Assembly (NCBI RefSeq): GCF_007971225.1
Contig: NZ_CP042435.1
Coordinates: 3,351,501 to 3,415,500 of the forward strand
Direction: 5' to 3'
DNA from: Panacibacter ginsenosidivorans
GTDB taxonomy: Bacteria; Bacteroidota; Bacteroidia; Chitinophagales; Chitinophagaceae
Length of the DNA: 64,000 nucleotides
Under the pieces are notes generated by a model. The model was not told the DNA's origin. It saw only the letters and a list, made by a program, of their open reading frames with translations, and ran no database searches. Both the position numbers and the translations under genes were made by a program. Every line of letters begins with the position of its first letter. The first letter of the stretch is position 1. Positions 1,504 to 62,015 of the stretch are shown here, piece after piece.

Positions 1504-1551
1504 GTACAAGAGTGCGACGCAACAAAAGCTTAATACTTATTCTACGGCTTA
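1504..1551 (+). repeat. GTAC repeat unit 1
   Basis: Core GTACAAGAGTGCGACGCAAC at 1504-1523, followed by AAAAGCTTAATACTTATTC and a CGGCTTA end. It lies just downstream of the pyrG stop. The 5' flank ends in CAGAAC. Confidence 0.9.
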
Positions 1552-1564
1552 GTACAAGATATTA

Positions 1565-3624
<2,060 letters not shown>

Positions 3625-4619: not shown

Positions 4620-4676
4620 GTACAAGCGTGCGACGCAACAGGCGATGCTATGAAATTATATTGCATGGTACATAAT
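4620..4676 (+). repeat. GTAC repeat unit 3
   Basis: Core GTACAAGCGTGCGACGCAAC (4620-4639), then AGGCGATGCTATGAAA and a GGTACATAATAAA end. It forms an inverted pair with unit 2 around the DLH gene. Confidence 0.85.
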
Positions 4677-8589: not shown

Positions 8590-8644
8590 TTTTTACCAAT
8601 CTCCTGCACAAGTATTAGGCTTTCGTTGCGTCGCACTCTTGTAC
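8590..8644 (-). repeat. GTAC repeat unit 4
   Basis: Core GTTGCGTCGCACTCTTGTAC at 8625-8644, preceded by TATTAGGCTTTC. It follows the transporter stop directly. Forms an empty inverted pair with unit 5 (70-bp spacer). Confidence 0.9.
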
Positions 8645-8713
8645 TCATGAATAGCCTTGAGCATTAGCTACGTGTTACGGTACTTTGTGCAAAATTTGAA
8701 AAGAGTTCAGAAC

Positions 8714-8768
8714 GCACAAGTGAGTGACACAACCGGCGATGCCACATATACTGCAGCCGGCCAACAAA
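8714..8768 (+). repeat. GTAC repeat unit 5 (GTGACAC subfamily)
   Basis: Core GCACAAGTGAGTGACACAAC (8714-8733), then CGGCGATGCC and a GCCGGCCAACAAA end. GTTCAGAAC precedes the core. Confidence 0.85.
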
Positions 8769-9318: not shown

Positions 9319-9340
9319 GCCTGCCATAGATTCTCTGATA

Positions 9341-9371
9341 ATAAAGCCACATAAAAATTATGTGGCTTTAT
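9341..9371. terminator. Bidirectional terminator between convergent genes
   Basis: A 13-bp perfect stem (9341-9353 with 9359-9371, AT-rich outer arms, GCCAC core) with a 5-nt loop, followed on the plus strand by CTTTTTT. It separates the basic small protein from the convergent amidohydrolase. Confidence 0.8.
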
Positions 9372-9376
9372 CTTTT

Positions 9377-10477
9377 TTAGTCAGAAGGAAAAAGAGATTT
9401 ATCAATGTTTGGAATTATAAGCAGCGCATTCTTATAATAGATCTTTTTCAGAATATCATCTGTTAATCCCATTCCGTACATGCGCCAGAATGCATGATAT
9501 TTTTTGTGATAAGGAAAATATTCATCTTCTGTTTCGAGCACACGAAAATAAGTCTGGTATTCTTCGGGCACCCAACTGTCTTTGCCAAACATAATGCGGT
9601 CCTGGTATTTTGTAAAGAATGCTTTTGCCGCTTTTGGCTGGCGACCAATTTCCGCAATCACAGCACCAAATTCCACAACAACATTCGGCATATCTGTAAG
9701 CAAGGAATCGAGTTTAGAAAGATTGTTTGCATACCATCCAAAATGCGCCGCTATAAAAGTTGTATGCGGATGTTTCTTGAACATTCTGTGTTGTTCTTCA
9801 ATCAAGGTTTCCCAGGGCGCAGGATTGGTTGCGCTTCTTTTTCTTTCCGGATGTGTTTTTAATTCAAGCCAGCGTTCATTGTGTTCATCCATTGGTTCCC
9901 AGAAAGGTGCAGGGTCTGCAGTGTGAATGAGCACGGGAATTTTCAACTCACCACATTTTTCCCAAATGGCATCAAGTCTCGGATCATCAACTGTTACACG
10001 TTTGCCATTCACATCTTTTACTGAGAAGCCAAGATTTTTGAAGACCTTCAGACCATTCGCGCCATTATGCACATCCTCTTCCAATTGTTTAACTGCTTTT
10101 TCTGTCCAGCCTGGTGCGCCAACCCTGTCGAAATCAATATTTGCAAAAATGATAAAGCGATTTGGGTATTGGCTTTTCACATTATCTGCCATGCGTTTCA
10201 AAGAACCACCATTGCCCCCACTAAGATTCACCATCACTTTTAAATTCAGGTTATCCATGTCTTTCACCAAACCATCAAGACTGCCGCTGCCCATATTCCA
10301 TTGATGATTGTGCACGTCAATGAAAGGATATTTTGCTTTTGTTATATGATGTTCAGGAACCACCAGTGTTGATGTTGGTTCATATTCCTCAAACCCCATT
10401 TTGTCGGTGGTCTGGCAGTGTGCAGATTGCGCAATGAACGCAAATGCCACAATTGTTTGCAGAAGGGATCTATACAT
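9377..10477 (-). CDS. Secreted amidohydrolase family protein
   Basis: 366 aa from the ATG at 10477, chosen because it gives a clean signal peptide (MYRSLLQTIVAFAFIAQSAHC). The longer frame to 10534 adds no plausible sequence. Amidohydrolase-2-type TIM barrel: FIDVHNHQ near the N-terminus (metal His pair), HTADP, FIAAHFGW and the late metal Asp in FGKDSW. Members are decarboxylases or hydrolases of cyclic or aromatic substrates; the substrate here is unknown. Monocistronic; it ends at the shared hairpin. Confidence 0.88.
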   Translation of the reverse strand: MYRSLLQTIVAFAFIAQSAHCQTTDKMGFEEYEPTSTLVVPEHHITKAKYPFIDVHNHQWNMGSGSLDGLVKDMDNLNLKVMVNLSGGNGGSLKRMADNVKSQYPNRFIIFANIDFDRVGAPGWTEKAVKQLEEDVHNGANGLKVFKNLGFSVKDVNGKRVTVDDPRLDAIWEKCGELKIPVLIHTADPAPFWEPMDEHNERWLELKTHPERKRSATNPAPWETLIEEQHRMFKKHPHTTFIAAHFGWYANNLSKLDSLLTDMPNVVVEFGAVIAEIGRQPKAAKAFFTKYQDRIMFGKDSWVPEEYQTYFRVLETEDEYFPYHKKYHAFWRMYGMGLTDDILKKIYYKNALLIIPNIDKSLFPSD

Positions 10478-10569
10478 AGCAGATGTTTGAGTGAAGATAT
10501 TATTGCAGCAAAAGAAATTAAAACCGTTCAGCAATGTTAACAGGATTTTTGATGCAATTGAAATTATTT

Positions 10570-10623
10570 ATGTAACCGGCAGTATTGCTATTATTGAGCT
10601 TTCGTTGCGTCGCACTCTTGTAC
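10570..10623 (-). repeat. GTAC repeat unit 6
   Basis: TGTAACCGGCAGTATTGC end, then TTGAGCTTTC and core GTTGCGTCGCACTCTTGTAC at 10604-10623. Inverted partner of unit 7 around the PIG-L gene. Confidence 0.9.
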
Positions 10624-10713
10624 TGAAGAAATTCAAAACAACCAGGCGACAGGCAAGGAGGCAAAGAGTTTTTTGATTAGGTTTACAAAACTTGCTTCAA
10701 TCAAACATTTGTT

Positions 10714-11475
10714 ATGAGTTATTTCAAAAACAATCGCAGAAAATTTTTGCAACAATCAGCAACAGGATTGGGAATGTTATCATTGCCTGCTTTATTAAAT
10801 GCGCAGGTTACGAATAAAAAAGACAAGAAGAAAATTGTTTGTGTCGGCGGCCATCCGGATGATCCTGAAAGTGGCTGTGGCGGCACGCTTGCTAAGTTTG
10901 CAAATGCAGGTCATGATGTAACAATTATTTATTTAACAACAGGGGAAGCAGGCATAGAAGGCAAATCTCATGATGAAGCAGCTGCAATTAGAAAACAGGA
11001 AGCCATTAATGCATGCAAAATATTAAATGCAAAACCTGTATTTGCCGGACAAATAGATGGAGATACGATTGTAAATAATGAATGGTTGCAAAAGCTGCAA
11101 CAACTCATCAAGAATGAATCTCCTGATATTGTGTTTGCACACTGGTCGATTGATTCACATAAAGATCATCAATGCGCAAGTTTATTAACTATACAAACAT
11201 GGATGCGTGCACAACAAAAATTCCCATTGTATTTTTTTGAAGTTTGTACCGGCGAACAAACCATGACTTTTCATCCAACAGATTATATTGATATCAGCGA
11301 TACACAGCAACAAAAAAGAAAAGCGGTGTATTGCCACACCAGCCAGGAGCCGCCGGGCATCTATGCCTGCGGCCATGCGGCTATGGAAGAATTTCGTGGA
11401 AGAGAAATTGGTGTAAAAGCTGCAGAAGCATTTGTAAGAATGAACGGAAGAACGCAAGGTGGTTTATCAATATGA
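10714..11475 (+). CDS. PIG-L family deacetylase with Tat-like signal
   Basis: 253 aa. The N-terminus has a twin-arginine type leader (NNRRKFLQQSATGLGML). The zinc site of the LmbE/PIG-L fold is visible as GGHPDDPESGCGG, where the usual Glu after HPDD is Pro, and SHKDHQ near residue 150. Members remove N-acetyl from GlcNAc-linked substrates. The HPDD metal-binding residues are kept, so activity is plausible. The gene is alone between inverted repeat units 6 and 7. Confidence 0.88.
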   Translation: MSYFKNNRRKFLQQSATGLGMLSLPALLNAQVTNKKDKKKIVCVGGHPDDPESGCGGTLAKFANAGHDVTIIYLTTGEAGIEGKSHDEAAAIRKQEAINACKILNAKPVFAGQIDGDTIVNNEWLQKLQQLIKNESPDIVFAHWSIDSHKDHQCASLLTIQTWMRAQQKFPLYFFEVCTGEQTMTFHPTDYIDISDTQQQKRKAVYCHTSQEPPGIYACGHAAMEEFRGREIGVKAAEAFVRMNGRTQGGLSI

Positions 11476-11491
11476 TGAATTATGATCAGGT

Positions 11492-11548
11492 GTACAAGTG
11501 TGCGACGCAAGAAAAATTTAATAGTTATTCTAAAGCGTGACTCATAAC
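11492..11548 (+). repeat. GTAC repeat unit 7
   Basis: Core GTACAAGTGTGCGACGCAAG (11492-11511), AAAAATTTAATAGTTATTC, and an end GACTCATAA that touches the 3' end of the next gene. Confidence 0.9.
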
Positions 11549-11551
11549 ATT

Positions 11552-12697
11552 TTAAAAACTTACGCGGCTATTTATTCTGCTTAGCAACATGTTATAACTG
11601 TCACGTAATAATTTATCAGCAATATCTTCTCTGCGTGGTTCATTTACGAAACTATTGTTGATCAATCTAAGATCATCGGCAGTCAATGCACGACTATCTC
11701 CACGATATGTTGCAGTTTGAATCTCCCAGTTGTAAGTGTTGGAAAAATTATCATAGAAACTATTTCGGCTGCTGTATGCATCATAAATGCGGCATTGCAA
11801 TGTGGCATTGCTTTGCATGTAGCGTTTGGTTACATATACAGTTGCTGTAACTGTTGTGTAGATTGGTCTTGGCGGGTTTGTTTTTGTTTCTCCTGTTTTT
11901 ATCTGTGCAGTTCTGTTAAGTGTATAATATTGTGTAAAAAGCTGGCTTATAAAAATGCGTGTGAAATTAAGATCAACAATTTTATCGGGCTGTATGTTTT
12001 GAGATCTTGCTTCCCAATCGTTGAAAAATTTTACGTTGCGGTAAGAACGAAAATTGAGATCACGAACCATTTGTTGTTGCAGCCAGTCATTTTGAAACCC
12101 CCAGAAATTATAACCATTGTTGTAATAGTTAACCGGATTCACAATAACTTTTATATAAGACTTATCATAAGCTTCCGCCATCAGGTCTTTTACATCTTTA
12201 TAACCGGGAACCGCTTTGTTTGCTTTTACAAAATAATCATAAGCTTTCTGTGCACCTTCTCTTGTGTTGTAATTTAAATTGGAAACTCCTTGTTCATAAT
12301 ATTCATCTGCCGCATGATTATATTCTTCCTGTATTTTATAAGACGGATCCCATGGGTTGGGCAATGCTTCTTTTGCTGCAGGTGTGGAAAGAATCGCTTC
12401 ATACATGTGTTGCATTACAAGCCATTCATTGGCTAAAGCAATGTGCCTGTCACCGCCGCCAAGATTATAATATTTTGCATCTGTAAGGCTATCTCTTTTA
12501 TTTAATGCTGCCCTGTAAGCCTCTGGCAGCAAGTGTTTCGCTTCTTCATCATTTGGGTTTTTCTTCAAACGATCAACAAGGTCAAATACCTGTTTGTCTT
12601 CAAAAGTGTAATTCTGTTTTACAGCGCTTGTTGTACCACAACCATAATAGGCAAGAATAAATAATAAGAAAAATAATTGCAGCAAGCGGTGCACCAT
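11552..12697 (-). CDS. Lipoprotein of unknown function
   Basis: 381 aa. Lipoprotein leader with lipobox AYYGC around residue 20. The first half is helical, TPR-like and rich in Asn-Pro pairs. The second half is rich in Tyr, Asn and Thr and probably beta-structured. No catalytic motif recognised. It is probably anchored in the outer or inner membrane. It sits between repeat units 7 and 8, whose CTCAT ends face it. Confidence 0.75.
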   Translation of the reverse strand: MVHRLLQLFFLLFILAYYGCGTTSAVKQNYTFEDKQVFDLVDRLKKNPNDEEAKHLLPEAYRAALNKRDSLTDAKYYNLGGGDRHIALANEWLVMQHMYEAILSTPAAKEALPNPWDPSYKIQEEYNHAADEYYEQGVSNLNYNTREGAQKAYDYFVKANKAVPGYKDVKDLMAEAYDKSYIKVIVNPVNYYNNGYNFWGFQNDWLQQQMVRDLNFRSYRNVKFFNDWEARSQNIQPDKIVDLNFTRIFISQLFTQYYTLNRTAQIKTGETKTNPPRPIYTTVTATVYVTKRYMQSNATLQCRIYDAYSSRNSFYDNFSNTYNWEIQTATYRGDSRALTADDLRLINNSFVNEPRREDIADKLLRDSYNMLLSRINSRVSF

Positions 12698-12730: not shown

Positions 12731-12787
12731 TTTATGAGCTTGGCGATAGAATATGCATGATGCTTACGTTGCGTCGCACACTTGAAC
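12731..12787 (-). repeat. GTAC repeat unit 8
   Basis: TTTATGAGCTTGGCG end, core GTTGCGTCGCACACTTGAAC at 12768-12787 (GTAC changed to GAAC). Forms an empty inverted pair with unit 9 (81-bp spacer). Confidence 0.85.
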
Positions 12788-12868
12788 TGAAGAATGCAAT
12801 TCAAAAATCAGAAATCAAACCAGAGGCGACAAGTTTTTGCCTTCTGCTTCGATACTATTTATCCTGCA

Positions 12869-12922
12869 GTACAAGTGAGTGACACAACAGGCGATGCCAA
12901 AAGACATGCAGTTGACAACAAA
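12869..12922 (+). repeat. GTAC repeat unit 9 (GTGACAC subfamily)
   Basis: Core GTACAAGTGAGTGACACAAC (12869-12888) followed by AGGCGATGCCAAAA. Abuts the 3' end of the small lipoprotein gene. Confidence 0.9.
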
Positions 12923-17097: not shown

Positions 17098-17155
17098 TTT
17101 TGGGGAACGAACTGCAGTGCTGCTATAAAGCTTTGGTTGTGTCACTCACTTGTAC
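17098..17155 (-). repeat. GTAC repeat unit 10 (GTGACAC subfamily)
   Basis: TTTTGGGGAACGAACTGC end, CTATAAAGCTTTG, core GTTGTGTCACTCACTTGTAC at 17136-17155. Inverted partner of unit 11 around murF. Confidence 0.9.
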
Positions 17156-18623: not shown

Positions 18624-18680
18624 GTATAAGAGTGCGACGCAACAGGTGATGCCATAAAAACAATTGCACGGCTCATAAAA
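18624..18680 (+). repeat. GTAC repeat unit 11
   Basis: Core GTATAAGAGTGCGACGCAAC (18624-18643), AGGTGATGCCATAAAA, and an end CGGCTCATAAAA only 10 bp before the Crp-family ATG. Both flanks of the murF pair also contain an AATGAGCAG word inside the GTAC ends. Confidence 0.9.
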
Positions 18681-19699: not shown

Positions 19700-20023
19700 A
19701 TGGCAACTTCAGTAAACGAAACTTATAGCGAGATCATCAACGGGACAACGCCTGTGCTGGTAGATTTCTCTGCAGAATGGTGCGGACCCTGTAAAATGAT
19801 GGCGCCGATACTTAAAGAACTGCATGGTATGCTGGGCAGCGCGGTGCGTATTTTAAAAATTGATGTGGACAGGAACCCAAAGCTTGCGGCTCAATATAAT
19901 ATAAGTGGTGTGCCTACGCTTATCTTATTCCAAAGTGGAAAAGTATTATGGCGGCAATCAGGGGTTATGCCTGCAAACCAGTTGGTTAAAGTTATAAAAC
20001 AACATGCGGTGCTTGCTGCATAA
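19700..20023 (+). CDS. trxA: Thioredoxin
   Basis: 107 aa from ATG 19700; the upstream in-frame ATG at 19646 overlaps the rhodanese gene and adds sequence unlike thioredoxins. Active site EWCGPCKMM and the cis-Pro loop SGVPTLILF are intact. Cytoplasmic dithiol-disulfide reductant. Co-transcribed with the rhodanese gene, which suggests it reduces the persulfide carrier, although it could be a general thioredoxin. Confidence 0.93.
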   Translation: MATSVNETYSEIINGTTPVLVDFSAEWCGPCKMMAPILKELHGMLGSAVRILKIDVDRNPKLAAQYNISGVPTLILFQSGKVLWRQSGVMPANQLVKVIKQHAVLAA

Positions 20024-20077
20024 AATTTACTTACCTGAGCAATTAAAACACGAACTTTGCAGGCGAAATTACAGATC

Positions 20078-20539
20078 ATGAGTGAGCAGAAAGCAAAACC
20101 ATCTTATTTGTTGAGCGTGCTGGGGAACAAATGTCCGCGGTGCCGCGAAGGTTATATATTCGAATCAAAAAATGCCTACGCATTAAAGAAAAGCTCTTAT
20201 ATAAAAATGCCGGAGAAATGCCCGGTGTGCGGTCAACCAACAGAAATTGAAGTTGGGTTTTATTACGGCACCAGTTATGTTAGTTATACGCTTACGGTTG
20301 CTTATTCTGTAGCCACTTTTATTGCCTGGTGGGTACTGCTTGGCTTTTCCATTTACGATAACAGCATATTTTACTGGCTCGGTTTCAATTCCATTTCTAT
20401 GTTATTGTTGCAACCTGTTTTCATGCGCTTGTCGCGTAGCATGTGGTTTAGCTGGTTTGTTAAATACGATCCCGATTGGAAAAATCATCCTGTTGGCAAA
20501 CAGGAAAGAATAGTGGAAGAACATATGGGCAACTGGTGA
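20078..20539 (+). CDS. DUF983 membrane protein
   Basis: 153 aa from ATG 20078 (a TTG at 20057 is less likely). Two CxxC pairs near the N-terminus (NKCPRCREG, EKCPVCGQP) look like a zinc ribbon. Two or three hydrophobic helices follow (residues about 70-125). DUF983 proteins are inner-membrane, and their biochemical role is unknown. Last gene of the Crp-rhodanese-thioredoxin run. Confidence 0.88.
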   Translation: MSEQKAKPSYLLSVLGNKCPRCREGYIFESKNAYALKKSSYIKMPEKCPVCGQPTEIEVGFYYGTSYVSYTLTVAYSVATFIAWWVLLGFSIYDNSIFYWLGFNSISMLLLQPVFMRLSRSMWFSWFVKYDPDWKNHPVGKQERIVEEHMGNW

Positions 20540-20581
20540 TGATACCCGGCCCTAAAGGGGGTAAGAAATTTTTTAGGACAA

Positions 20582-20626
20582 ACTTTTGAGCTACTATTAA
20601 GCTTTGGTTGTGTCACTCACTTGTAC
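20582..20626 (-). repeat. GTAC repeat unit 12 (GTGACAC subfamily)
   Basis: ACTTTTGAGCTACTATTAAGC, core GTTGTGTCACTCACTTGTAC at 20607-20626, then GTTCAGA. A shorter unit than most. Inverted partner of unit 13 around the NYN gene. Confidence 0.9.
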
Positions 20627-20669
20627 GTTCAGATCATTATGAGCAAGTAATTGTATTATTCCTAAATGG

Positions 20670-21449
20670 TTATTTTCTCTTCACATAAACATGTTTAATA
20701 TTTCCTTTTCCGGTTTCGCGCTGATCTATTTCAAAAACATTCATGTTCTTTATTAATTGCACCAATTTGCCAAATCCATAGTTACGGCTATCAAAATTGG
20801 GCATCTTTTTAATAAGTATATTTCCAAGGTCACCTAGGAAAGCCCAGCCATTTTCATCGGCAATATCTTCAATGCTGTCTGAAATAAGTTTGATCAGTTT
20901 CTTATCAGCCTTTAATATCGGTTGTTTTGGTGCAGGCTTTGTTTGATGCTGGGAAGATGGTTTAGCCGCAGCAGGTTTGCCTGTTTCGGATTCTTCCACT
21001 TCAGGCTCGGCAGTAAGGATTTCTATATAAATAAATTTATCGCAGGCAGAAATGAAAGGTTTGGGTGTTTTCTTTTCCCCAAAGCCAAACACTTTCATAC
21101 CGGCCTCACGTAAGCGTGTGGCAAGCCGGGTAAAATCGCTATCGCTTGATACAATGCAGAACCCATCAACTTTTCCCGAATACAAAATATCCATTGCATC
21201 AATGATCATTGCAGAATCGGTGGCATTCTTTCCGGTGGTGTAACTGTATTGCTGAATGGGTGTAATGGCGTTTTCCAGCAGTACACCTTTCCAGCCTGAA
21301 ACAGTTGGTTTTGTCCAGTCTGCATAAATTCTTTTAAATGTAGGTGTTCCATATTTCGCAATTTCTTCAAACATTTCTTTTACGCTGGCATATGGAACAT
21401 TATCAGCATCAATTAAAACGGCAAGCCTGAGATCATTGTTATTGTTCAT
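20670..21449 (-). CDS. NYN (PIN-like) domain protein with OST-HTH/LOTUS domain
   Basis: 259 aa. N-terminal NYN nuclease fold: VLIDADNVPY (catalytic Asp), NATDSAMIIDAMD, VSSDSDFTRLATRLRE and the GFGEKKTPKPF end typical of LabA/MARF1-like proteins. A Pro/Lys/Ala-rich linker (about 150-175) joins it to a C-terminal OST-HTH RNA-binding domain (NGWAFLGDLGNILIKKMPNFDSRNYG). Predicted RNase or RNA-binding factor; target unknown. Alone between inverted repeat units 12 and 13. Confidence 0.9.
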   Translation of the reverse strand: MNNNNDLRLAVLIDADNVPYASVKEMFEEIAKYGTPTFKRIYADWTKPTVSGWKGVLLENAITPIQQYSYTTGKNATDSAMIIDAMDILYSGKVDGFCIVSSDSDFTRLATRLREAGMKVFGFGEKKTPKPFISACDKFIYIEILTAEPEVEESETGKPAAAKPSSQHQTKPAPKQPILKADKKLIKLISDSIEDIADENGWAFLGDLGNILIKKMPNFDSRNYGFGKLVQLIKNMNVFEIDQRETGKGNIKHVYVKRK

Positions 21450-21596
21450 AACTATTAAATTAATCCTATATAGATAAAGATAGTCAGAATAAAACGATTG
21501 TAAAGTTGTTGCGCTTTGTGTTGTTTTGACAAATAGCTTTGCAGTTTTTTAAGGCAGTATGTGAATTGCCATGGTTTGCTGCCTGTAGTTCGGAAA

Positions 21597-21653
21597 GTAC
21601 AAGAGTGCGACGCAACAGGCGATGCATAAAAAACTACAGGCGGGCTCATAAAT
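21597..21653 (+). repeat. GTAC repeat unit 13
   Basis: A well-preserved unit: GTTCGGAAA, core GTACAAGAGTGCGACGCAAC (21597-21616), AGGCGATGCATAAAA, and end GCGGGCTCATAAATT. 37 bp before the TonB receptor ATG. Confidence 0.95.
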
Positions 21654-21689
21654 TAACTAACAGTGTCAGAAATTTTTAAACAACAAAGA

Positions 21690-24038
21690 ATGCTTACAAA
21701 GGTTTTACAGGTTGCTGTTTTTGTAGTACTAACTAACGCGGTTTGTGCACAGGCAACCATTTCGGGGAAAGTAAAAGGATCTAAATCTAATGCGGTAGAG
21801 GGTGCAACAGTACATGTGCTTAATTCGAATGCCGTAACCATTACGGATGCACACGGAAATTTTACGATCAGCAATATTGCAAAAGGCTCTTACACGATCA
21901 CAATCGAAGCATTAGGTTATGCAACAAAAAATGAGATAATTTCTACAGGTGAGTCTTTAGAAATTTTATTATCAGAAGATTATAAACAGTTAGATGATGT
22001 AACTGTGAGTGCAGAAAAAAGAGAAGCATCCCTTCAGCAAACGGCTTTAAGTATGACCTCACTTTCTGCCAAACAAGTGCAGCAATACAGGCTTTGGAAC
22101 AGCAAAGAATTAACAGCGATCGTGCCTAATCTTTATTCAAATAATTCCGGTGATGAAAGAAATGTTACATCTATTCGAGGTATAACTACTACATCATACG
22201 ATCCTGCGGTAACAACATACATTGATGGCGTGAATCAATTCAGTCTTGATACTTACATGCCGCAATTACTGGATGTTGAAAGAATAGAAATTCTTCGTGG
22301 GCCACAAGGCACATTGTATGGCCGCAATGCAATGGGAGGCGTGATCAATATCATTACCAAGCAACCAACCAACACAGCAAGTGGTTTTGCAGAAATAAGC
22401 ATTGGTAATCATAACCAGCAGCGTTACAATCTTGGTGTTCGCCTGCCGGTTATAAAAGATAAATTATTCTTTGGTGCAGCAGCCATGTTCAACAAACGCG
22501 ATGGCTTTTATACCAATGAATTCAATAATTCTTCCTACGATAAACAAAATGGTTTCACCGGTAATTACTATCTGAAATATTTACCCAATCAAAAATGGGT
22601 AATAACATTAAACGCCAAACATCAGAACACAAGAAACAATGGCGCATTTCCCTTGGTAAATGGTGTTGATGAAGCATTCAATAATCCTTATAAACTTTCG
22701 CAGAATGCATTGGCGAAAATGATCGATAATACTTTCAACGCATCGCTGGTTGTTAATCATACAGGCAATAGATTTAATTTTTCTTCACAAACAGCATGGC
22801 AACAAAATCACCGTTATTATAATGCACCACTCGATGGAGATTTTTCCACTCTTGATATAATTAGTATCATTAATGATTATGGTAAAAAATGGAACAACGT
22901 AAAAGTATTTACAGAGGAATTACGCTTCAGTTCGCCAGCCAATAATGCTGCTGCATTAAAATGGACTGCCGGCGCATACTTCTTTCATCAAAATGTTCCG
23001 AATAAACAAGCAACTTATTTCGGCGAAGATGCCGGTTATTATGGTATTCCGGATACCGATTTCTCTACCATCAGTACAAGCACCGGCAAGAATACCGGCA
23101 TAGCAGCATATGGACAGATCAATTATACATTCAGTAAAAAGTTTGAATTGATAGCTGGCCTGCGTTACGATCATGAGAGCAAAAAATTATCTGTGCTGGG
23201 TGAGTATGAAAAAGCAGGTGTTGGAACTATTGTTACATTGCCCGATACAAGTGCAACAGCCAACTTCAATGCAGTTTCGCCAAAGCTGGGCATCAATATC
23301 CATGCAACGGCAAACAATCTAGTTTTTGCAACATACAGCCGCGGATACAGAACAGGCGGCTTAACCCAATTATCTTCTGATCCATCGAACCCGCCGCTTT
23401 ATCCTTACAAGCCTGAGTACAGCGATAATATTGAAGCGGGCATAAAAAATAATTTCTTTAATGACCGTTTGCGTGTAAACATTACTGCGTTCATAACTTT
23501 CGTTACCGATGCGCAGGTGCCAACACTGGTATTACCCGAAGCAATTACCATTACTAAAAATACGGGCAAGCTTACCAGTAAAGGCGCAGAACTTGAAGTA
23601 TCTTCCACACCCGTAAAAGGCCTGCAGCTTGATTATAATTTTGGTTACACCAATGCAAAATATAAATCACTAAAGGTTTCCAGTAATGGAGAATCTATTG
23701 ATCTTAATGGCAACAAACAGATCTTTACGCCGGATGTAACTTCTATGCTTGCTGCCCAATACAGTTTGTTGCTCAATCAAAAACAGCAGGTAAAATTAGT
23801 TGCACGTGCTGAATGGTTTTATCTTGGCACTACATATTTTGATCTTGCCAATAATATCAGCCAGTCGCCTTACCAGTTGCTGAATACACGTATTGGTGTA
23901 AGCAGCAAACATGCTGATCTTTTCTTCTGGGCAAGAAATATTACAGACAAACACTACATAGCTTATGCATATGATTTTGGTGCGGTGCATTTGGCTGATC
24001 CAAGAACAATTGGTGTTTCATTGATGGCTAAATTCTAG
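21690..24038 (+). CDS. TonB-dependent outer membrane receptor
   Basis: 782 aa from ATG 21690, which gives a proper signal peptide (MLTKVLQVAVFVVLTNAVCAQ); the GTG at 21663 would add nine residues. A carboxypeptidase-like domain (about 25-100) is followed by a plug (RNVTSIRGI, VERIEILRGPQGTLYGRNAMGGVINI) and a beta-barrel ending in hydrophobic-Phe (GVSLMAKF). It is not SusC-like and no SusD follows, so it may import siderophores, vitamins or another small ligand. Monocistronic, with its own terminator. Confidence 0.92.
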   Translation: MLTKVLQVAVFVVLTNAVCAQATISGKVKGSKSNAVEGATVHVLNSNAVTITDAHGNFTISNIAKGSYTITIEALGYATKNEIISTGESLEILLSEDYKQLDDVTVSAEKREASLQQTALSMTSLSAKQVQQYRLWNSKELTAIVPNLYSNNSGDERNVTSIRGITTTSYDPAVTTYIDGVNQFSLDTYMPQLLDVERIEILRGPQGTLYGRNAMGGVINIITKQPTNTASGFAEISIGNHNQQRYNLGVRLPVIKDKLFFGAAAMFNKRDGFYTNEFNNSSYDKQNGFTGNYYLKYLPNQKWVITLNAKHQNTRNNGAFPLVNGVDEAFNNPYKLSQNALAKMIDNTFNASLVVNHTGNRFNFSSQTAWQQNHRYYNAPLDGDFSTLDIISIINDYGKKWNNVKVFTEELRFSSPANNAAALKWTAGAYFFHQNVPNKQATYFGEDAGYYGIPDTDFSTISTSTGKNTGIAAYGQINYTFSKKFELIAGLRYDHESKKLSVLGEYEKAGVGTIVTLPDTSATANFNAVSPKLGINIHATANNLVFATYSRGYRTGGLTQLSSDPSNPPLYPYKPEYSDNIEAGIKNNFFNDRLRVNITAFITFVTDAQVPTLVLPEAITITKNTGKLTSKGAELEVSSTPVKGLQLDYNFGYTNAKYKSLKVSSNGESIDLNGNKQIFTPDVTSMLAAQYSLLLNQKQQVKLVARAEWFYLGTTYFDLANNISQSPYQLLNTRIGVSSKHADLFFWARNITDKHYIAYAYDFGAVHLADPRTIGVSLMAKF

Positions 24039-24090: not shown

Positions 24091-24143
24091 GTTTACCCAA
24101 CTGTATTGCTACTATTATACATTCTTGCGTCGCACTCTTGTAC
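24091..24143 (-). repeat. GTAC repeat unit 14
   Basis: GTTTACCCAACTGTATTGC, ATTATACATT, core CTTGCGTCGCACTCTTGTAC at 24124-24143. Inverted partner of unit 15 around the SMUG2-like gene. The rest of the 24039-24400 gap has only the terminator and a promoter. Confidence 0.9.
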
Positions 24144-25125: not shown

Positions 25126-25180
25126 GTACAAGAGTGCGACGCAATAAAGTTGAATAAAGTATTGCAGCCGGATACATAAA
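25126..25180 (+). repeat. GTAC repeat unit 15
   Basis: AAAC, core GTACAAGAGTGCGACGCAAT (25126-25145), AAAGTTGAATAAAGTATTGC, end CCGGATACATAAA. Confidence 0.9.
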
Positions 25181-28720: not shown

Positions 28721-28778
28721 ATTATGGCCCCAGCCGTAGTAATTAATATTAAGCATTTCTTGCGTCGCACACTGCGGC
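28721..28778 (-). repeat. GTAC repeat unit 16 (degraded)
   Basis: ATTATGGCCCCAGCC end, TTAAGCATTT, core CTTGCGTCGCACACTGCGGC at 28759-28778; the GTAC end has decayed. Pairs with unit 17 around the DUF4142 gene. Confidence 0.8.
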
Positions 28779-29639: not shown

Positions 29640-29697
29640 GCATAAGAGTGCGACGCAACGGATGCTCAATAGCAGTATCGGCTTACGGCTAATAAAT
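29640..29697 (+). repeat. GTAC repeat unit 17
   Basis: Core GCATAAGAGTGCGACGCAAC (29640-29659), GGATGCTCAATAGCAGTATC, end ACGGCTAATAAATT reaching the stop of the next gene. Confidence 0.85.
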
Positions 29698-34652: not shown

Positions 34653-34708
34653 CTTTTGAACCGGGCAGTATTACTACTATTAAACCCGGTTGCGTCGCAC
34701 TCTTGTAC
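34653..34708 (-). repeat. GTAC repeat unit 18
   Basis: CTTTTGAACCGGGCAGTATT, ATTAAACCCG, core GTTGCGTCGCACTCTTGTAC at 34689-34708. Forms an empty inverted pair with unit 19 (74-bp spacer). Confidence 0.9.
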
Positions 34709-34782
34709 CCCTATAACTTTATTCAACCGCTGATGCGCAGCAAATATAAACAAGTTGCCATATGCAGCGCAGCGAACAAAGC

Positions 34783-34841
34783 GTACAAATGTGCGACGCA
34801 ACCAAAGCTTTATATCAGTTATGCAGCATGGTTTATAAATA
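34783..34841 (+). repeat. GTAC repeat unit 19
   Basis: Core GTACAAATGTGCGACGCAAC (34783-34802), CAAAGCTTTATATCAGTTATG, end ATGGTTTATAAAT, 20 bp from the stop of the YwqK/MORN gene. Confidence 0.9.
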
Positions 34842-38169: not shown

Positions 38170-38521
38170 GGGTCGTTTAAATAAATATTAGAAATGAAGT
38201 AATTTTGACTAGAACGCAAGCTAAAGAGCATTGGTTATGAGGGGCTGAATTTTTAATTAAAAAATAAGTCAGTAAAAAAATACTCTGTAAAGCTGTGTAA
38301 AAATTTGAACCGTACTTTGAGTTGATATTCTTAATAATACCAGCAACGGATTATGTAGCATCGTCCCTTGCGTCGCAATCACTTTAACTGTTGTAAAAAT
38401 AGCATCTGGAATTTTTTGAAATGATTTGCAGATAGAACTTAGTTAGACTGTTGTTATATAGCCAAGGCAACACGCTGTTCAAAAAGAAATGGTTACGAAG
38501 AAATTCATAACCATTTTTGTG
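38170..38521. other. 352-bp intergenic region with a degenerate repeat
   Basis: Holds repeat unit 20. The remainder is AT-rich with no coding sense. The promoter of the YwqK/MORN gene must be at its left edge. A 128-codon open frame running from here through the tRNA is a chance frame. Confidence 0.5.
38339..38386 (-). repeat. GTAC repeat unit 20 (CCTTGCGTCGCAATC variant)
   Basis: ACCAGCAACGG end, GCATCGTCC, core-like CTTGCGTCGCAATCACTTTA at 38367-38386. The inner part and the GTAC end differ from consensus, but it shares CATCGTYCCTTGCGTCGCAATC with unit 29. Confidence 0.7.
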
Positions 38522-38608
38522 CGGAGAGTAAGAGATTCGAACTCTTGATACAGTTTCCCGTATACACACTTTCCAGGCGTGCTCCTTCAACCACTCGGAC
38601 AACTCTCC
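38522..38608 (-). tRNA. tRNA-Ser (anticodon GGA)
   Basis: 87-nt class II tRNA. The acceptor stem GGAGAGT/ACTCTCC with discriminator G, D-arm TCCGAGTGG, anticodon loop CTGGAAA giving anticodon GGA (Ser, UCC codons), a long variable arm (TATACGGGAAACTGTATC), and T-arm AAGAGTTCGAATCTCTT. CCA is not encoded. Lies 34 bp downstream of tatD on the same strand. Confidence 0.97.
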
Positions 38609-39539: not shown

Positions 39540-39590
39540 GTACTTGCGACGCAACTATGACGCTATGAAATAATTGAGCTTGGCACAAAA
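39540..39590 (+). repeat. GTAC repeat unit 21 (degenerate)
   Basis: GTAC directly joined to TTGCGACGCAAC (39540-39555); the AAGAG between them is lost. Then TATGACGCTATGAAA and a GAGCTTGGCACAAAA end. Confidence 0.7.
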
Positions 39591-40730: not shown

Positions 40731-40789
40731 ACTTTTGAACCCAGCCTTGGAATCATTTATTTAGCTTCCGTTGCGTCGCACATTTTCAC
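40731..40789 (-). repeat. GTAC repeat unit 22
   Basis: CTTTTGAACCCAGCC end, TTTAGCTTCC, core GTTGCGTCGCACATTTTCAC at 40770-40789; the GTAC end is decayed. Confidence 0.8.
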
Positions 40790-43052: not shown

Positions 43053-43109
43053 GTACAAGTGAGTGACACAACGAAAGTTTAATAGTAGTAAAGCCGCTAA
43101 GTATAAAAC
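43053..43109 (+). repeat. GTAC repeat unit 23 (GTGACAC subfamily)
   Basis: CAGAAC, core GTACAAGTGAGTGACACAAC (43053-43072), GAAAGTTTAATAGTAGTAAAG, end GCCGCTAAGTATAAAA touching the DUF6569 stop. Confidence 0.9.
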
Positions 43110-43110
43110 A

Positions 43111-44136
43111 TTAATCACTATAAGCAATAAGATGAATTACTTTTTTATCATAAGTAAAAATAGCACCATGGTCAGCAAGATATTTTTGTTGCTGTTCTTC
43201 TGTCTTTAAAAATTTGTCCAGGAATTTTTTTACTTCATCGTCTGAAACGCTTACAGTACCTGATTTATCACGCACACTACGCATATAACCCTTTAGCATT
43301 GTTTCAAAAGAAGTAATGCAAAGATCGCTGCTGCCGAAGAGTTCGCAATTAATAATATGATCTCCTGAAAGTGCTACAAAACCCGCATAAAGACTATCGC
43401 TGTCCTTCATTTTTTTCCTGAAGAAAGCAAGACAGGCAGAATCTGCGCCAGATGTATCACGGTATAAATTAAGATATGCGCTTGTTGCACTTTGTTTTTT
43501 ATCATCTGCCAATTGCCGGTCAATTTCTTTCCAAACCTTGTTTTGTTTTTTGGTAATATTCATTTGCTTTCGCAATGATGAATTGGCTGGGCCTGCATAC
43601 CTGAAATTGCGCAGCCTGTTTTCCCATCTCCCTTTCTCTACACAAAATACTGGCACAAAATTTTCATCATCACCCGGTGGAATTATTGTTGTTTCTGCAA
43701 ATGCCCTGTCCTGTTTGCCACCTGCAACCATCTCGCCGCTTTCAATAAGAACATTTTTTTTCGAATGATTTCTCAACTCAAGCATACCAACATCTGCACC
43801 ACCCTGTGTGGTCATTTCTCTTACCGTTATTTTTCCCTCTTTCAAAGCATCTTCAAAAGAAATAATATTATTGCTTTGAGTGCTTTTCTTTGCAACAGCA
43901 GTATCCCTGAATTTCACAGGTATCAATTTCAGGTTATTACAAACCCATGGCGAATCATACTGAACAGATAATGTAGCGTATGTTAATTGTGCAAAAGAAG
44001 CTGAAGAAAATGAAAAGAAAAATACAACAGCAAAAAAAACTTTGCTGAAAAATATGTTGTGTGGTTTTTTGGGTACCGGCTTTTGCCTTTTATGGCATCG
44101 CCTGTTGCGTCGCATTCCGTTCATCGTTTTGATCAA
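43111..44136 (-). CDS. Secreted DUF6569 (ARPP-1) domain protein with repeat-encoded N-terminus
   Basis: 341 aa if started at ATG 44136 (ATG 44121 and 44112 are also possible). Residues about 8-20 (MRRNRRCHKRQKP) are translated repeat unit 24. A hydrophobic signal segment follows (FFAVVFFFSFSSASFA), and no Met lies between. The mature domain has VLIESGEMVAGGKQDRAFAETTIIPPG and FCVEKGRW, typical of DUF6569. Function unknown; probably periplasmic. Confidence 0.8.
   Translation of the reverse strand: MIKTMNGMRRNRRCHKRQKPVPKKPHNIFFSKVFFAVVFFFSFSSASFAQLTYATLSVQYDSPWVCNNLKLIPVKFRDTAVAKKSTQSNNIISFEDALKEGKITVREMTTQGGADVGMLELRNHSKKNVLIESGEMVAGGKQDRAFAETTIIPPGDDENFVPVFCVEKGRWENRLRNFRYAGPANSSLRKQMNITKKQNKVWKEIDRQLADDKKQSATSAYLNLYRDTSGADSACLAFFRKKMKDSDSLYAGFVALSGDHIINCELFGSSDLCITSFETMLKGYMRSVRDKSGTVSVSDDEVKKFLDKFLKTEEQQQKYLADHGAIFTYDKKVIHLIAYSD
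44067..44123 (-). repeat. GTAC repeat unit 24 (inside a coding N-terminus)
   Basis: TTTTTTGGGTACCGGC end, TATGGCATCGCCTG, core GTTGCGTCGCATTCCGTTCA at 44104-44123. The only unit overlapping a predicted coding region. Confidence 0.85.
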
Positions 44137-47427: not shown

Positions 47428-47485
47428 TTTTTGGGTTACCAGCTTTTGTATTTCAATTAATCATTGTTGCGTCGCACTCTTGTAC
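47428..47485 (-). repeat. GTAC repeat unit 25
   Basis: ATTTTTGGGTTACCAGC, core GTTGCGTCGCACTCTTGTAC at 47466-47485. Starts at the stop codon of the glycosyltransferase gene. Confidence 0.9.
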
Positions 47486-48001: not shown

Positions 48002-48058
48002 GTACAAGAGTGCGACGCAACAAAAGCATTATTTATAACCTACAGCCCGGATCATAAT
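48002..48058 (+). repeat. GTAC repeat unit 26
   Basis: Core GTACAAGAGTGCGACGCAAC (48002-48021), AAAAGCATTATTTATAACC, end CCCGGATCATAATT, 37 bp before the alpha-galactosidase ATG. Confidence 0.95.
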
Positions 48059-50294: not shown

Positions 50295-50351
50295 TTTTTG
50301 AGCCAATCTTTATTGCTACTATTAAGCTGTTGTTGCGTCGCACACTTGTAC
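50295..50351 (-). repeat. GTAC repeat unit 27
   Basis: AATTTTTGAGCCAATC, TATTAAGCTGTT, core GTTGCGTCGCACACTTGTAC at 50332-50351. Starts right after the alpha-galactosidase stop. Confidence 0.95.
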
Positions 50352-51015: not shown

Positions 51016-51073
51016 GTACAAGTGTGCGACGCAACAAAAGCTAAATTTTTATTCAACACCCGGGTTCATAAAA
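51016..51073 (+). repeat. GTAC repeat unit 28
   Basis: CAGAC, core GTACAAGTGTGCGACGCAAC (51016-51035), AAAAGCTAAATTTTTATTC, end CCCGGGTTCATAAAAA touching the TRIC-like gene. Confidence 0.95.
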
Positions 51074-52189: not shown

Positions 52190-52242
52190 TATGATACCAG
52201 CTTTGTTTTTATGGCATCGTTCCTTGCGTCGCAATCCTTTCA
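52190..52242 (-). repeat. GTAC repeat unit 29 (CCTTGCGTCGCAATC variant)
   Basis: ATGATACCAGC end, TATGGCATCGTTC, core-like CTTGCGTCGCAATCCTTTCA at 52223-52242. It shares its variant core with unit 20. No plus partner follows. Confidence 0.75.
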
Positions 52243-56324: not shown

Positions 56325-56381
56325 ATTTATGTTGCCGACAGTAAAGCTTTGGGCATCGCCGGTTGTGTCACTCACTTGTAC
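56325..56381 (-). repeat. GTAC repeat unit 30 (GTGACAC subfamily)
   Basis: TTTATGTTGCCGACAG, GGGCATCGCCG, core GTTGTGTCACTCACTTGTAC at 56362-56381, then GTTCGGA. Empty pair with unit 31 (38-bp spacer). Confidence 0.9.
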
Positions 56382-56419
56382 GTTCGGAGCAACTGTCGAC
56401 AGCCGACTACTGTTATGCA

Positions 56420-56476
56420 GTACAAGAGTGCGACGCAACAAAAGCTAAATGCTTATCCAACAGCATGACTCCAAAA
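56420..56476 (+). repeat. GTAC repeat unit 31
   Basis: TTATGCA, core GTACAAGAGTGCGACGCAAC (56420-56439), AAAAGCTAAATGCTTATCC, end CATGACTCCAAAAA touching the globin stop. The two arms of this pair belong to different subfamilies. Confidence 0.9.
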
Positions 56477-59421: not shown

Positions 59422-59422
59422 T

Positions 59423-59479
59423 TTTTTGTTTCCTGCTTTAATATTTCATGTCATCACCTGTTGCGTCGCACACTTATAC
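59423..59479 (-). repeat. GTAC repeat unit 32
   Basis: AATTTTTTGTTTCCTGC, GTCATCACCT, core GTTGCGTCGCACACTTATAC at 59460-59479. Starts right after the crotonase stop. Confidence 0.9.
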
Positions 59480-59579
59480 TGCATAATATTATGCAGCAGG
59501 TAAAACGTAACAAGTGAAAAATAAAGATGTGATAAATACTTTGGCTTTTGACCTTTCACTTTTCACAATTGTTCCGAAC

Positions 59580-59636
59580 CTACAAGAGTGCGACGCAACA
59601 AAAGCTTAATTTATTTTCGACTGCCAGGCCCCAAAA
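59580..59636 (+). repeat. GTAC repeat unit 33
   Basis: GTTCCGAAC, core CTACAAGAGTGCGACGCAAC (59580-59599), AAAAGCTTAATTTATTTTC, end CCAGGCCCCAAAAAA touching the DUF1345 stop. Confidence 0.9.
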
Positions 59637-59638
59637 AA

Positions 59639-60328
59639 TCAACTACTTCTTAAACCGGCAAGTGTATTAATAGTAAGCGCCACCAGCACTGTATTATAGC
59701 CGAAGGCAATAAGGCTGTGCATTAATACCAGCCTGCGTAAACGGCGTGAGGTAACCTGCACATCTGATACCTGGAAGGTCATGCCGATGATAAAAGAGAA
59801 ATAAGCAAAATCAATAAAATCTGGGTTATCATTTGGCGTTGATTCTTCATCAGGAAAATCTAAGCCACGTGCAGGAGTATTTTCTTTTTCTTTATGATCT
59901 CCATAATATAAGTGTGCATAACGAACAGTAAAAATTGTATGCACTAATGACCATGAAAGCAACATAGAAGGAACTGCAACAAAAATATGCAGAAGTTTAT
60001 GTGAGTCTTTTTCCTGGATAAGTAAAGAACCAACTGCCAGCAAGCTTGCCAATGTTGCCACTAATACAATAGCAAATATTATAAAGCGTGAACCATCTTG
60101 TACCTGCGCCTGTTTACGAATTTGCTTCGAAGGTGTTGTATAAAAAACAAGCCAGTCAATAGTAAGAATGGCGAGGCTAAATGTGAGCCACCCTATCATT
60201 ACATGCGACAAAACATCTACCATGTCCCATGGAATAATAAAAAAGACCAGTAATGCTATTGCTAAACATAAACCAACTTTATGCAAAGCCATTAATTTTT
60301 TTATCCATGAGAAACGCTCTGCTTTCAT
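59639..60328 (-). CDS. DUF1345 membrane protein
   Basis: 229 aa, about five hydrophobic helices. DUF1345 signature segment DFIDFAYFSFIIGMTFQVSDVQVTS near residue 165, and an acidic loop (DFPDEESTPNDNPD) before it. Inner-membrane protein of unknown function. Its start is 17 bp after the stop of the fucosidase gene, so co-transcribed. The pair is flanked by inverted 140-bp repeats. Confidence 0.9.
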   Translation of the reverse strand: MKAERFSWIKKLMALHKVGLCLAIALLVFFIIPWDMVDVLSHVMIGWLTFSLAILTIDWLVFYTTPSKQIRKQAQVQDGSRFIIFAIVLVATLASLLAVGSLLIQEKDSHKLLHIFVAVPSMLLSWSLVHTIFTVRYAHLYYGDHKEKENTPARGLDFPDEESTPNDNPDFIDFAYFSFIIGMTFQVSDVQVTSRRLRRLVLMHSLIAFGYNTVLVALTINTLAGLRSS

Positions 60329-60345
60329 GTTGCTTATTTAATCGA

Positions 60346-61770
60346 TCAATTATTCTTTTCAATTAGTGCATCATTAATATTGTACACTTCTACTTCGCTA
60401 ATGAGTGGCAGATCTTTTGTGGCTGTTATTATAAAACGTATAGCACTTACTTCTGCTGCAGGAAATGTAATGATCCGTTTTCTGCCAATAGTGGTGCCGT
60501 TGATGGTTTGTAAAACTTTTGCACCATCCAGCAATTCAATTTTAAAACCACTAATGTTTTGCCCATGTTCTATTGCCTCACGAAGTACGATACAATTGAT
60601 CTTTTGACCGTCTGTAAACCTGAGCCAATACGATGTTTTTTTATAATTGATGTTTCTTTCATAAGTGTTTACATCGCCATCTGCAAAGAACTGTTTTTTA
60701 AAAAGCACATTATCATAATAGGTTTCTTTCTTTGCATTGGTTGCAAGATTAGTTGCAAAACTTTCATCCCGCAGTTTTTTAAAACCCATTAATGCTGCAC
60801 TGTCATGTTCATTTATCAGACCCCTTCTGTCTGGCGGTACATTTAATAAAAGACTTGCTCCGCGGCCAACAGATTTTAAATAAAGATCAAAAAGTTCCTG
60901 CGGTGTTTTTACTTTATCATCTTCATTCGCATGATAGAACCAACCCGGCCTTATGCTGACATCGCACTCTGCGGGAATCCAGTTCTTTCCATTATAATTG
61001 CCGCTATTCAGTGTATCTGTTGGTGGCGAACCTTCGCCTCTTTTAAAACCAGCAGTATCTAATAAATTCCAGTTGGTTTTTCCGGCAAAACCTTTTTCAT
61101 TACCTACCCAGCGAATATCTGGACCAATATCGCTAAACACTGGTGTGTTAGGTGCAATGGTCCTCATAGTTTGTTCAAACTTATGCCAGTCGTAGATTTG
61201 TTTCTTACCGTTAGGGCCTTCACCATTTGCACCATCCCACCAAAATTCGAATAAAGGGCCATAACGTGTAACCACTTCTTTCATCATGTTTATGAAAACA
61301 TCATTGTATTCATCAGTTCCATACTTTGGGTGATTACGATCCCACGGCGATAAATAAATGCCAAGTTTTAAATTGTACTCTTTGCATGCATCACTCAGCT
61401 CCTGCAGCACATCGCCTTTGCCGTCTTTCCATTTGCTTTGCGCAACGGTATGTGTGGAGTATGCGCTAGGCCACAAGCAAAAACCATCATGATGTTTTGC
61501 AGTAATAATAATTCCTTTTGCGCCTGCAGCTTTTGCAATGCGGCACCATTGCCTGCAGTCGAGCTGTGTTGGGTTAAATACTTCTTCCTGCTCTGTGCCT
61601 TTGCCCCATTCAAGATCAGTGAATGTGTTAGGACCAAAATGTGTAAAGAGATAAAACTCCATATCCTGCCATTGCAGTTGTCTGGCGGAAGGTACAGGTT
61701 CATTTGTTTTTTGCGCATGAAGCAATGACACAAAACAACATAAGCTAAATAATGTAAAAATGCTTCTCAT
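60346..61770 (-). CDS. Secreted alpha-L-fucosidase (GH29) with C-terminal discoidin-like domain
   Basis: 474 aa, signal peptide to about residue 19. GH29 features LQWQDMEFYLFTHFGPNTF, ITAKHHDGFCLWPS and FEFWWDGANGEG (nucleophile Asp). The C-terminal 110 aa (KKETYYDNVLF to EVEVYNIN) form an F5/8-type jelly roll. This layout fits the narrower-specificity GH29-B group. First gene of a two-gene unit with DUF1345. Confidence 0.92.
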   Translation of the reverse strand: MRSIFTLFSLCCFVSLLHAQKTNEPVPSARQLQWQDMEFYLFTHFGPNTFTDLEWGKGTEQEEVFNPTQLDCRQWCRIAKAAGAKGIIITAKHHDGFCLWPSAYSTHTVAQSKWKDGKGDVLQELSDACKEYNLKLGIYLSPWDRNHPKYGTDEYNDVFINMMKEVVTRYGPLFEFWWDGANGEGPNGKKQIYDWHKFEQTMRTIAPNTPVFSDIGPDIRWVGNEKGFAGKTNWNLLDTAGFKRGEGSPPTDTLNSGNYNGKNWIPAECDVSIRPGWFYHANEDDKVKTPQELFDLYLKSVGRGASLLLNVPPDRRGLINEHDSAALMGFKKLRDESFATNLATNAKKETYYDNVLFKKQFFADGDVNTYERNINYKKTSYWLRFTDGQKINCIVLREAIEHGQNISGFKIELLDGAKVLQTINGTTIGRKRIITFPAAEVSAIRFIITATKDLPLISEVEVYNINDALIEKNN

Positions 61771-61797
61771 TCATTAGTGGTTAAGGTTAAGATCAAT

Positions 61798-61854
61798 TTT
61801 ATGAGTCCGGCTTTTGCATTGCTATGATGCTTCTGTTGCGTCGCACTCTTGTAC
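61798..61854 (-). repeat. GTAC repeat unit 34
   Basis: TTTATGAGTCCGGC, ATGATGCTTCT, core GTTGCGTCGCACTCTTGTAC at 61835-61854, then GTTCGGAAC. Lies just upstream of the fucosidase start. Confidence 0.95.
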
Positions 61855-61954
61855 GTTCGGAACGACGGTGAAAAGTGAAAGGTCAAAAGATAAAGTATTT
61901 ATCACATCTTTATTTTTCACTTTTGACTTTTTACTTGCTGCATAGTGCTATGCA

Positions 61955-62012
61955 GTACAAGAGTGCGACGCAAGAAAAGCTCAATGCTTATTCTACAGTC
62001 GGGTACATAAAA
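61955..62012 (+). repeat. GTAC repeat unit 35
   Basis: CTATGCA, core GTACAAGAGTGCGACGCAAG (61955-61974), AAAAGCTCAATGCTTATTC, end GTCGGGTACATAAAAA touching the next gene's stop. Confidence 0.95.
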
Positions 62013-62015
62013 ATA

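Follow-up and report, generated by a model that had tools for sequence, protein, structure and literature searches.

A large family of palindromic intergenic units with two main core types in Panacibacter ginsenosidivorans

The inverted pair around the DUF1345 and fucosidase genes

We analysed a stretch of 64,000 nucleotides (the window; positions 3351501-3415500) of the 5.53-Mb single-contig genome of Panacibacter ginsenosidivorans (G000), and within it a pair of intergenic palindromic units that flank two genes. The enclosed genes code for a DUF1345 protein (PF07077; 59639..60328, minus strand) and an alpha-L-fucosidase (PF01120; 60346..61770, minus strand). Unit 1 (59422..59638) separates the DUF1345 gene from an enoyl-CoA hydratase gene (PF00378; 58645..59421, plus strand). 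It starts with a T-run right after the hydratase stop, continues with two half-elements (halves) that face each other and ends with an A-run leading to the DUF1345 stop. Each half carries an 11-nt core, and both cores of unit 1 are of the type that we call A: one lies on the plus strand (59461..59471) and the other on the minus strand (59588..59598), with a core spacing of 116 nt (A> <A). Unit 2 (61793..62014, ends approximate) has the same architecture, with A cores at 61836..61846 (plus strand) and 61963..61973 (minus strand). It is bordered by the fucosidase start on one side and by the stop of a xylose-isomerase-like TIM-barrel gene (PF01261; 62016..62909, minus strand) on the other.

The pair was first noticed in an earlier reading of this DNA (the original prediction) as two mirrored 140-bp copies, and the match is exactly as claimed: 59460-59599 and the reverse complement of 61835-61974 are identical at 124 of 140 positions without a gap, whereas 20 shuffles of the 6-kb region gave the 140-mer no ungapped match better than 63/140. 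A repeat search extended the arms to 59461-59653 and 61781-61973 (193 nt, 80% complementary) and showed each of the two copies to be an inverted pair in its own right. The motifs TGCATA..TATGCA and CTTTTGACCTTTCACTTTTC are found where they had been reported, the two copies differing slightly there. The proposal that the pair together with its spacer is a repeated element is borne out by many units genome-wide; in the window alone, the core TTGCGTCGCAC occurs 29 times at no more than one mismatch, against 0.70 expected. The spacer also recurs, more loosely. Beyond units 1 and 2, 17 of 49 match rows cover at least 120 of the 151 query bases at 68-76% identity (40 of 1,681 candidates scored), and they represent 15 distinct places, one place being matched on both strands and two rows coming from a contig-end duplicate. 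The pair of mirrored copies is not special: these are two of several hundred palindromic intergenic units.

Units 1 and 2 are nevertheless unusually similar, being 89% alike, whereas the other matches that cover at least 100 bases of the 151-base query stay at or below 76% (again among the 40 of 1,681 candidates scored). This likeness suggests local copying. We compared the locus with that of G001, a relative of the same genus; the family was taken as Chitinophagaceae, and the closest named relative by fucosidase search is Chitinophagaceae bacterium UBA4407 (80%). In G001 unit 1 is absent and only 23 bp lie between the stop codons of the convergent hydratase and DUF1345 genes, compared with the 217-bp unit 1 in the window; the presence/absence polymorphism anticipated by the original prediction thus exists. 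Unit 2 is present in G001 as A> <B, with an interior unlike that in G000. The simplest history would be that an interior was copied between the unit-1 and unit-2 sites in this lineage.

The original prediction also likened the two copies to miniature inverted-repeat transposable elements (MITEs) that can invert or mobilise the segment between them. The 140-bp inverted arms are real and unit 1 is absent in G001, as this explanation would have it, but we consider it most improbable. The DUF1345 gene lies between the hydratase and fucosidase genes in both G000 and G001, the only relative seen with both genes here, and the segment has the window's orientation there. In 13 loci of other relatives the hydratase and fucosidase genes are adjacent, and in all 13 their relative orientation is that of the window, so no inversion is seen. 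Nor did we find evidence that the copies mobilise the two genes, which are ordinary ones. No target-site duplication is visible by eye at the one empty site, that of G001, and no transposase was identified (the search covered PF01797). Near-identical young copies do not form groups, which also speaks against MITEs in the strict sense. As to terminal inverted repeats matching an autonomous transposon, there is no recurrent family among the 153 genes enclosed by halves in 22% of the genome, which was not scanned for all transposase families. Finally, the idea of a dedicated flanking device does not hold, since 466 of 855 counted genes carry a half next to one or both of their ends. Two such units in inverted orientation do not by themselves indicate a mobile or invertible segment.

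Size, anatomy and distribution of the family

The 19-mer TTGCGTCGCACTCTTGTAC at no more than two mismatches has 796 + 722 = 1,518 sites in the 5.53-Mb genome, and the reversed-pattern control has none. With a profile of the half (E<=1e-3) we detected 637 halves in 1.204 Mb, or 22% of the genome, which extrapolates, provided that this sample represents the whole, to about 2,900 halves (about 500 per Mb). In the first 464 kb, 245 matches at E<=0.01 compare with 0 in one Markov-shuffled copy. Halves with an E value greater than 1e-3 were left out; those of a minor core type, C, at 38368, 39554 and 44105 of the window miss this cut in the larger sample, so that the pairing and alternation counts given here miss some of type C. 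The segments 9169-11688 and 5525507-5528026 of the genome are identical over 2,520 bases, the contig apparently having an untrimmed terminal overlap; genome-wide copy counts are therefore slightly inflated.

Among the relatives, 58 genomes were searched. At least one site is present in 20 of 35 other genomes of the same family; the 23 genomes that belong to other families of the order have none. The counts are 842 (same genus), 375, 226, 150, 57, 44 and 28, the others having fewer than 15. With a slightly wider pattern, two further genomes with named loci, UBA4407 and UBA7600, gave 1,699 and 1,172 sites. Copies are also found in contigs of a viral collection.

A half is about 60-90 nt long and consists of a T-run, CCxGC, a variable module, the core, CTTGTAC and an inner arm (for example GTTCTGAACATTATTCAGCAA, after CTTGTAC). 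According to position frequencies around 164 cores, the T-run is at -39 to -34 and CCxGC near -29. The variable stretch before the core often ends in TTAAGCTTTTG or GGCATCGCCTG, the two main modules. There are two main core types, A (TTGCGTCGCAC) and B (TTGTGTCACTC). The third and rarer type C (TTGCGTCGCAA or TTGCGTCGCAT; at 38368, 39554, 44105 and 52224 of the window) is a subtype of its own, in many cases with TCxxTTCA-like bases after it.

In a unit, two halves face each other and are separated by a variable interior that is often itself palindromic; many halves stand alone. If '>' and '<' denote the direction of a half, neighbouring halves without a gene between them (n=158) comprise 151 '><', 4 '<>', 3 '>>' and 0 '<<'. 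The spacing of facing cores peaks at 40 and 47 nt, with a spread around 100-140 nt. Close pairs (n=144) prefer unlike cores: 107 are A+B, against about 60 expected from type frequencies, 29 are A+A, 4 are B+B and 4 include the minor type C. The halves are almost all intergenic, only 1 of 241 being intragenic according to our own codon-usage gene caller, from which all gene positions were taken.

For the first 60 of the 144 units the median folding z-score against mononucleotide shuffles is -3.2 (5-95%: -7.5 to 0.1). Consensus folding (alifold) of 70-80-row samples yields only 4-5 pairs, in or beside the core, with scores of -7.3 for type B (controls -4.9, 0, 0) and -6.1 for type A (controls -3.2, -0.8, -1.5). 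Column covariation among 233 halves does not reveal clear base pairing outside the core, and Rfam at gathering scores has no match in the window.

The nearest known counterparts are bacterial interspersed mosaic elements (BIMEs), described as intergenic, high-copy mosaics of modules with inverted repeats in alternating orientation (PMC2817692). The present family is likewise intergenic, mosaic and of high copy number, with inverted repeats of different types alternating. It differs from them in that its core is unlike the GTAG-type repetitive extragenic palindromes (REPs), the half has no conserved long hairpin inside, alternation extends across genes and the genome has no match to a REP-associated tyrosine transposase (RAYT). 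A GTAG tag at one end is not conserved in the position frequencies of 164 halves; with both this tag and a RAYT match lacking, the family is not made of REP sequences in the sense used for BIMEs. With the REPIN/RAYT system (PMC3116915) it shares extragenic inverted doublets with a spacer and the capacity to form hairpins, the doublets corresponding to the 151/158 '><' neighbours here. Unlike that system, G000 has no match to a Y1 transposase, lone halves appear to be nearly as intact as paired ones, and the RAYT-like gene of G001 has other repeats around it and a split half beside it. CGTC-tagged REPs (Di Nocera et al., PMC3733652) have an unpaired CGTC tag at one end, 8-9-bp stems and 4-5-bp loops. 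They are reported there from Bacteroidetes among other phyla, mostly as HH dimers and without a dedicated transposase. No dedicated transposase was found for our family either (only PF01797 was searched), but CGTC lies inside core A and is absent from core B, and an 8-9-bp stem is not conserved. BOX, RUP and SPRITE of Streptococcus pneumoniae (PMC3049150) are also small interspersed repeats with genome-wide spread and slow turnover, but they belong to another phylum. In the open-licence PubMed Central literature, by title and abstract start, we found no description of this repeat family. The family is BIME-like and new, and what makes it unusual is a nearly frozen two-state core, the missing RAYT match and alternation across genes.

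Core conservation, gene ends and orientation

The cores show little decay. We counted all 11-mers in the 1.204 Mb without the profile, with the reversed pattern as control. Core A occurs 380 times exactly, 66 times with one mismatch (control 8) and 171 times with two (control 179), the one-mismatch excess being partly due to the minor type C; core B occurs 211 times exactly, 9 times with one mismatch (control 11) and 161 times with two (control 189). Decayed cores are therefore few. Whole units have drifted: their median best unit-to-unit score is 86 bits. The core is exact in 275 of 288 paired and 315 of 349 lone halves (p=0.014), or in 275/284 and 315/329 if only types A and B are considered, with the reservation for both comparisons that whether a half is found at all depends on its core. 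With so few one-mismatch cores, the hypothesis of core maintenance lends itself to direct testing.

Many exact copies of a short motif on both strands (796/722), in discrete variants and inverted pairs, bring DNA-uptake signals to mind, such as DUS of Neisseria and USS of Haemophilus. By analogy, the core might be an uptake or recombination-initiation signal, held exact through biased uptake and recombination. We find this very unlikely, as only 1 of 241 halves is within a gene and a structured flank of 60-90 nt is conserved around the core.

Halves are tied to gene ends. The T-run often begins directly after a stop codon that faces it, and 77 of 241 halves lie 30-62 nt past the stop of a gene pointing at them. 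Where the neighbouring gene differs between G000 and G001, ends marked by a half in G000 are also marked in G001 in 15 of 28 cases, as opposed to 2 of 32 for unmarked ends (Fisher p=1e-4); where the neighbour is the same, the corresponding values are 15/22 and 2/56. A half thus tends to stay with the gene next to its T-run. At three same-neighbour junctions, by our own reading, a paired unit in one species corresponds to a lone half in the other. A comparison with an outgroup, 400 kb of the relative G028, offered 22 informative neighbour pairs and gave no clear answer.

The cores may be kept intact either by selection on each copy or by replacement from other copies, and the core types favour replacement. 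At 7 of 30 gene ends with a half in both species the type differs, A in G000 and B in G001, and each of the differing cores equals one of the two types at no more than one mismatch. Since three bases separate A from B and few intermediates exist (two TTGCGTCACAC among 270 listed), replacement is likelier than stepwise mutation.

These differences also bear on a host function. The core might be the site of a chromosome-organising or transcription-boundary protein at the ends of transcription units, with each copy under purifying selection; BIMEs are used by gyrase, Pol I or IHF. Scarce decayed cores, halves kept at corresponding gene ends of G000 and G001, the outer edge often abutting a stop codon (the 77 of 241 halves) and the single intragenic half would all fit such a site. 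On the other hand, the family is patchy (among the 20 of 35 family members with any site, 13 have fewer than 20), the core type differs between species at 7 of 30 shared gene ends and copies occur in viral-collection contigs. On balance, we regard selection for a host function as unlikely, while giving it real weight.

The orientation of halves shows a further regularity. Neighbouring lone halves (n=252) comprise 119 '><', 96 '<>', 20 '>>' and 17 '<<', that is, they alternate in 215 of 252 cases (binomial p about 1e-31). The neighbours of a close pair alternate weakly ('<>' 103, '<<' or '>>' 64). We rejected a global parenthesis grammar: the cumulative orientation range is 15 over 864 kb, a value inside the spread of a first-order simulation (a fraction of 0.70 of the simulated values being no larger), which means that alternation is local. 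We also argue against purging of direct repeats as the cause, adjacent paired units commonly putting direct repeats around genes (56 intervals between two paired units).

Base composition follows orientation as well. Around 265 lone halves, GC content at third codon positions (GC3) is lower by a mean of 0.042 in the core-side gene than in the gene on the T-run side (Wilcoxon p=2e-25); the core-side gene has the lower GC in 75% of cases and is also shorter. The GC3 difference is present in all seven length bins with enough genes. Over the 1.204 Mb, mean GC3 is 0.303 for genes between facing lone halves, 0.356 between back-to-back ones and 0.330 between close pairs. Fractions of genes with reciprocal best hits, compared by interval type without statistics, show no clear pattern.

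It is tempting to see in '> gene <' or '< gene >' mobile cassettes with the halves as terminal inverted repeats. Lone halves alternate in 215 of 252 neighbours, exactly one gene lies within 83 of 119 '>..<' lone pairs and the enclosed genes have lower GC3. A viral-collection contig, too, has facing halves around one gene with a signal-peptide-like start. But genes of the window at 38643, 40848 and 47555 (enclosed) and 39744 (between outward halves) keep the same order in element-poor relatives such as G028 and so were not inserted. Many enclosed genes look housekeeping-like by their N-termini, as judged by eye. The 153 enclosed genes lack a recurrent protein family, the largest cluster being of 3, and the core types of one-gene pairs are near random (AB 37, AA 32, AC 8, BC 3, BB 3). 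Cassettes therefore seem very unlikely. The specific candidate of 39744 as an inserted '< gene >' cassette was rejected, tblastn placing it between 40848 and 38643 in G028 and in four further loci of relatives (L113, L117, L119, L128). In the viral contig mentioned (IMGVR_UViG_2920066549_000001; L286 3921-4828) the gene between the facing halves codes for 242 aa; its neighbours were taken for phage genes by eye, and it is possibly a moron.

Alternatively, the halves could be orientation-coded boundary marks read by a putative host protein. Their direction would then make adjacent halves face or back one another with one gene in between, the core-side gene being AT-richer and shorter than that on the T-run side, and the core is near letter-perfect in an estimated 2,900 copies. 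We hold this to be rather improbable; if true, it would be a bacterial boundary system with polarity rather than merely a spreading repeat family.

Our preferred reading, to which we give a probability of roughly 0.46, is that the units form a large intergenic family of mosaic palindromes, similar to BIMEs and REPINs but with a sequence of its own, whose core might be maintained by a sequence-specific activity. Its observed basis is the copy number, the structure of halves and units, the discrete core types, their facing orientation and A+B preference, conservation at the same gene ends in two species and the few decayed cores. We infer that the core would be recognised by a nuclease, recombinase or DNA-binding protein, though not by a Y1/RAYT transposase of G000. 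Such an activity may use halves and units as templates to copy or repair others; mutated cores would then be replaced, and the flanks would drift. The resemblance of units 1 and 2 might go back to one such event, in which a unit interior was copied locally in this lineage. The family is well suited to the question of how REP/BIME-like repeats stay intact where the usual transposase is lacking.

A PF01797 profile has no match in G000 at E<=0.001. Y1 matches occur in 43 of 59 genomes searched, with none in G000 or G025 despite their 1,518 and 226 sites. A Y1 (IS200/RAYT-type) enzyme might still have spread the halves in an ancestor, its gene being lost from G000 later, or might act in other species. 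In 5 of 20 Y1 regions of relatives the Y1 gene has a half (whole, split or truncated) no more than about 300 bp away and is on the core side of that half, namely L085 (truncated half), L086 (split half), L089, L090 and L093. Two of the four Y1 genes of G028 are such cases, although this genome has just 57 sites in 4.7 Mb. Against this explanation, besides the two genomes without a match, facing halves on both sides within 300 bp were seen in none of the 20 regions. In addition, at L086, L090 and L093 other hairpin repeats accompany or surround the Y1 gene, and we read these cases as insertions into or beside units. A past role of a Y1 enzyme is thus highly improbable in our judgement. Region L086 (G001 C2:1542500-1550700) contains a RAYT-like Y1 gene of 201 aa, a weak match, within a dense cluster of other repeats. 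One of these splits a half directly beside the Y1 gene, with an apparent 4-bp TCAC duplication. A RAYT/REPIN system proper was rejected for G000, which lacks a PF01797 match, and the Y1 gene of G001 sits among other repeats.

Returning to maintenance by a sequence-specific activity, several points weigh against it. A copying model explains neither the alternation of lone halves across genes nor the asymmetry in base composition. Active copying should leave near-identical young copies, and these are few: a best partner with at least 85% identity over at least 100 bp exists in the sample for only 4 of 144 unit queries, two of which are units 1 and 2. The responsible protein was not found, the PF01797 search being negative in G000, and the halves beside Y1 genes in five of 20 regions leave a small probability of a past role of a Y1 enzyme. 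Purifying selection on a host function could equally conserve the core.

Other members of the family in the window

Apart from units 1 and 2, paired units are located (core to core) at 8626..8732 and 12769..12887 (both A> <B), 34690..34801 (A> <A) and 56363..56438 (B> <A). Lone halves with core A are found on the plus strand at 3298..3308, 10605..10615, 24125..24135, 28760..28770, 40771..40781, 47467..47477 and 50333..50343, and on the minus strand at 1512..1522, 4628..4638, 11500..11510, 18632..18642, 21605..21615, 25134..25144, 29648..29658, 48010..48020 and 51024..51034. Core B characterises the lone halves at 17137..17147 and 20608..20618 (plus strand) and 43061..43071 (minus strand). The lone halves of type C are those at 38368..38378 (plus), 39544..39554 (minus) and 52224..52234 (plus), all with TTGCGTCGCAA, and at 44105..44115 (plus) with TTGCGTCGCAT. 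Near the first of these lies a tRNA-Ser (gga) gene at 38521-38608.

By our own reading, eight synteny breaks between the window and G001 could be localised to about 600 bp or less, and 6 of them contain or abut a half; base rates are high and there is no matched control. This comparison covers the window except 20001-24000, and we claim nothing from it. The genes at 38643 (TatD), 39744, 40848, 44268, 46942 and 47555 (B12-binding) form, together with the hydratase and fucosidase genes, a block (38643-61770) whose order is largely kept in many relatives. Within this block, the genes at 41578, 43111, 48096 and 50373 are extra in G000 compared with G028.

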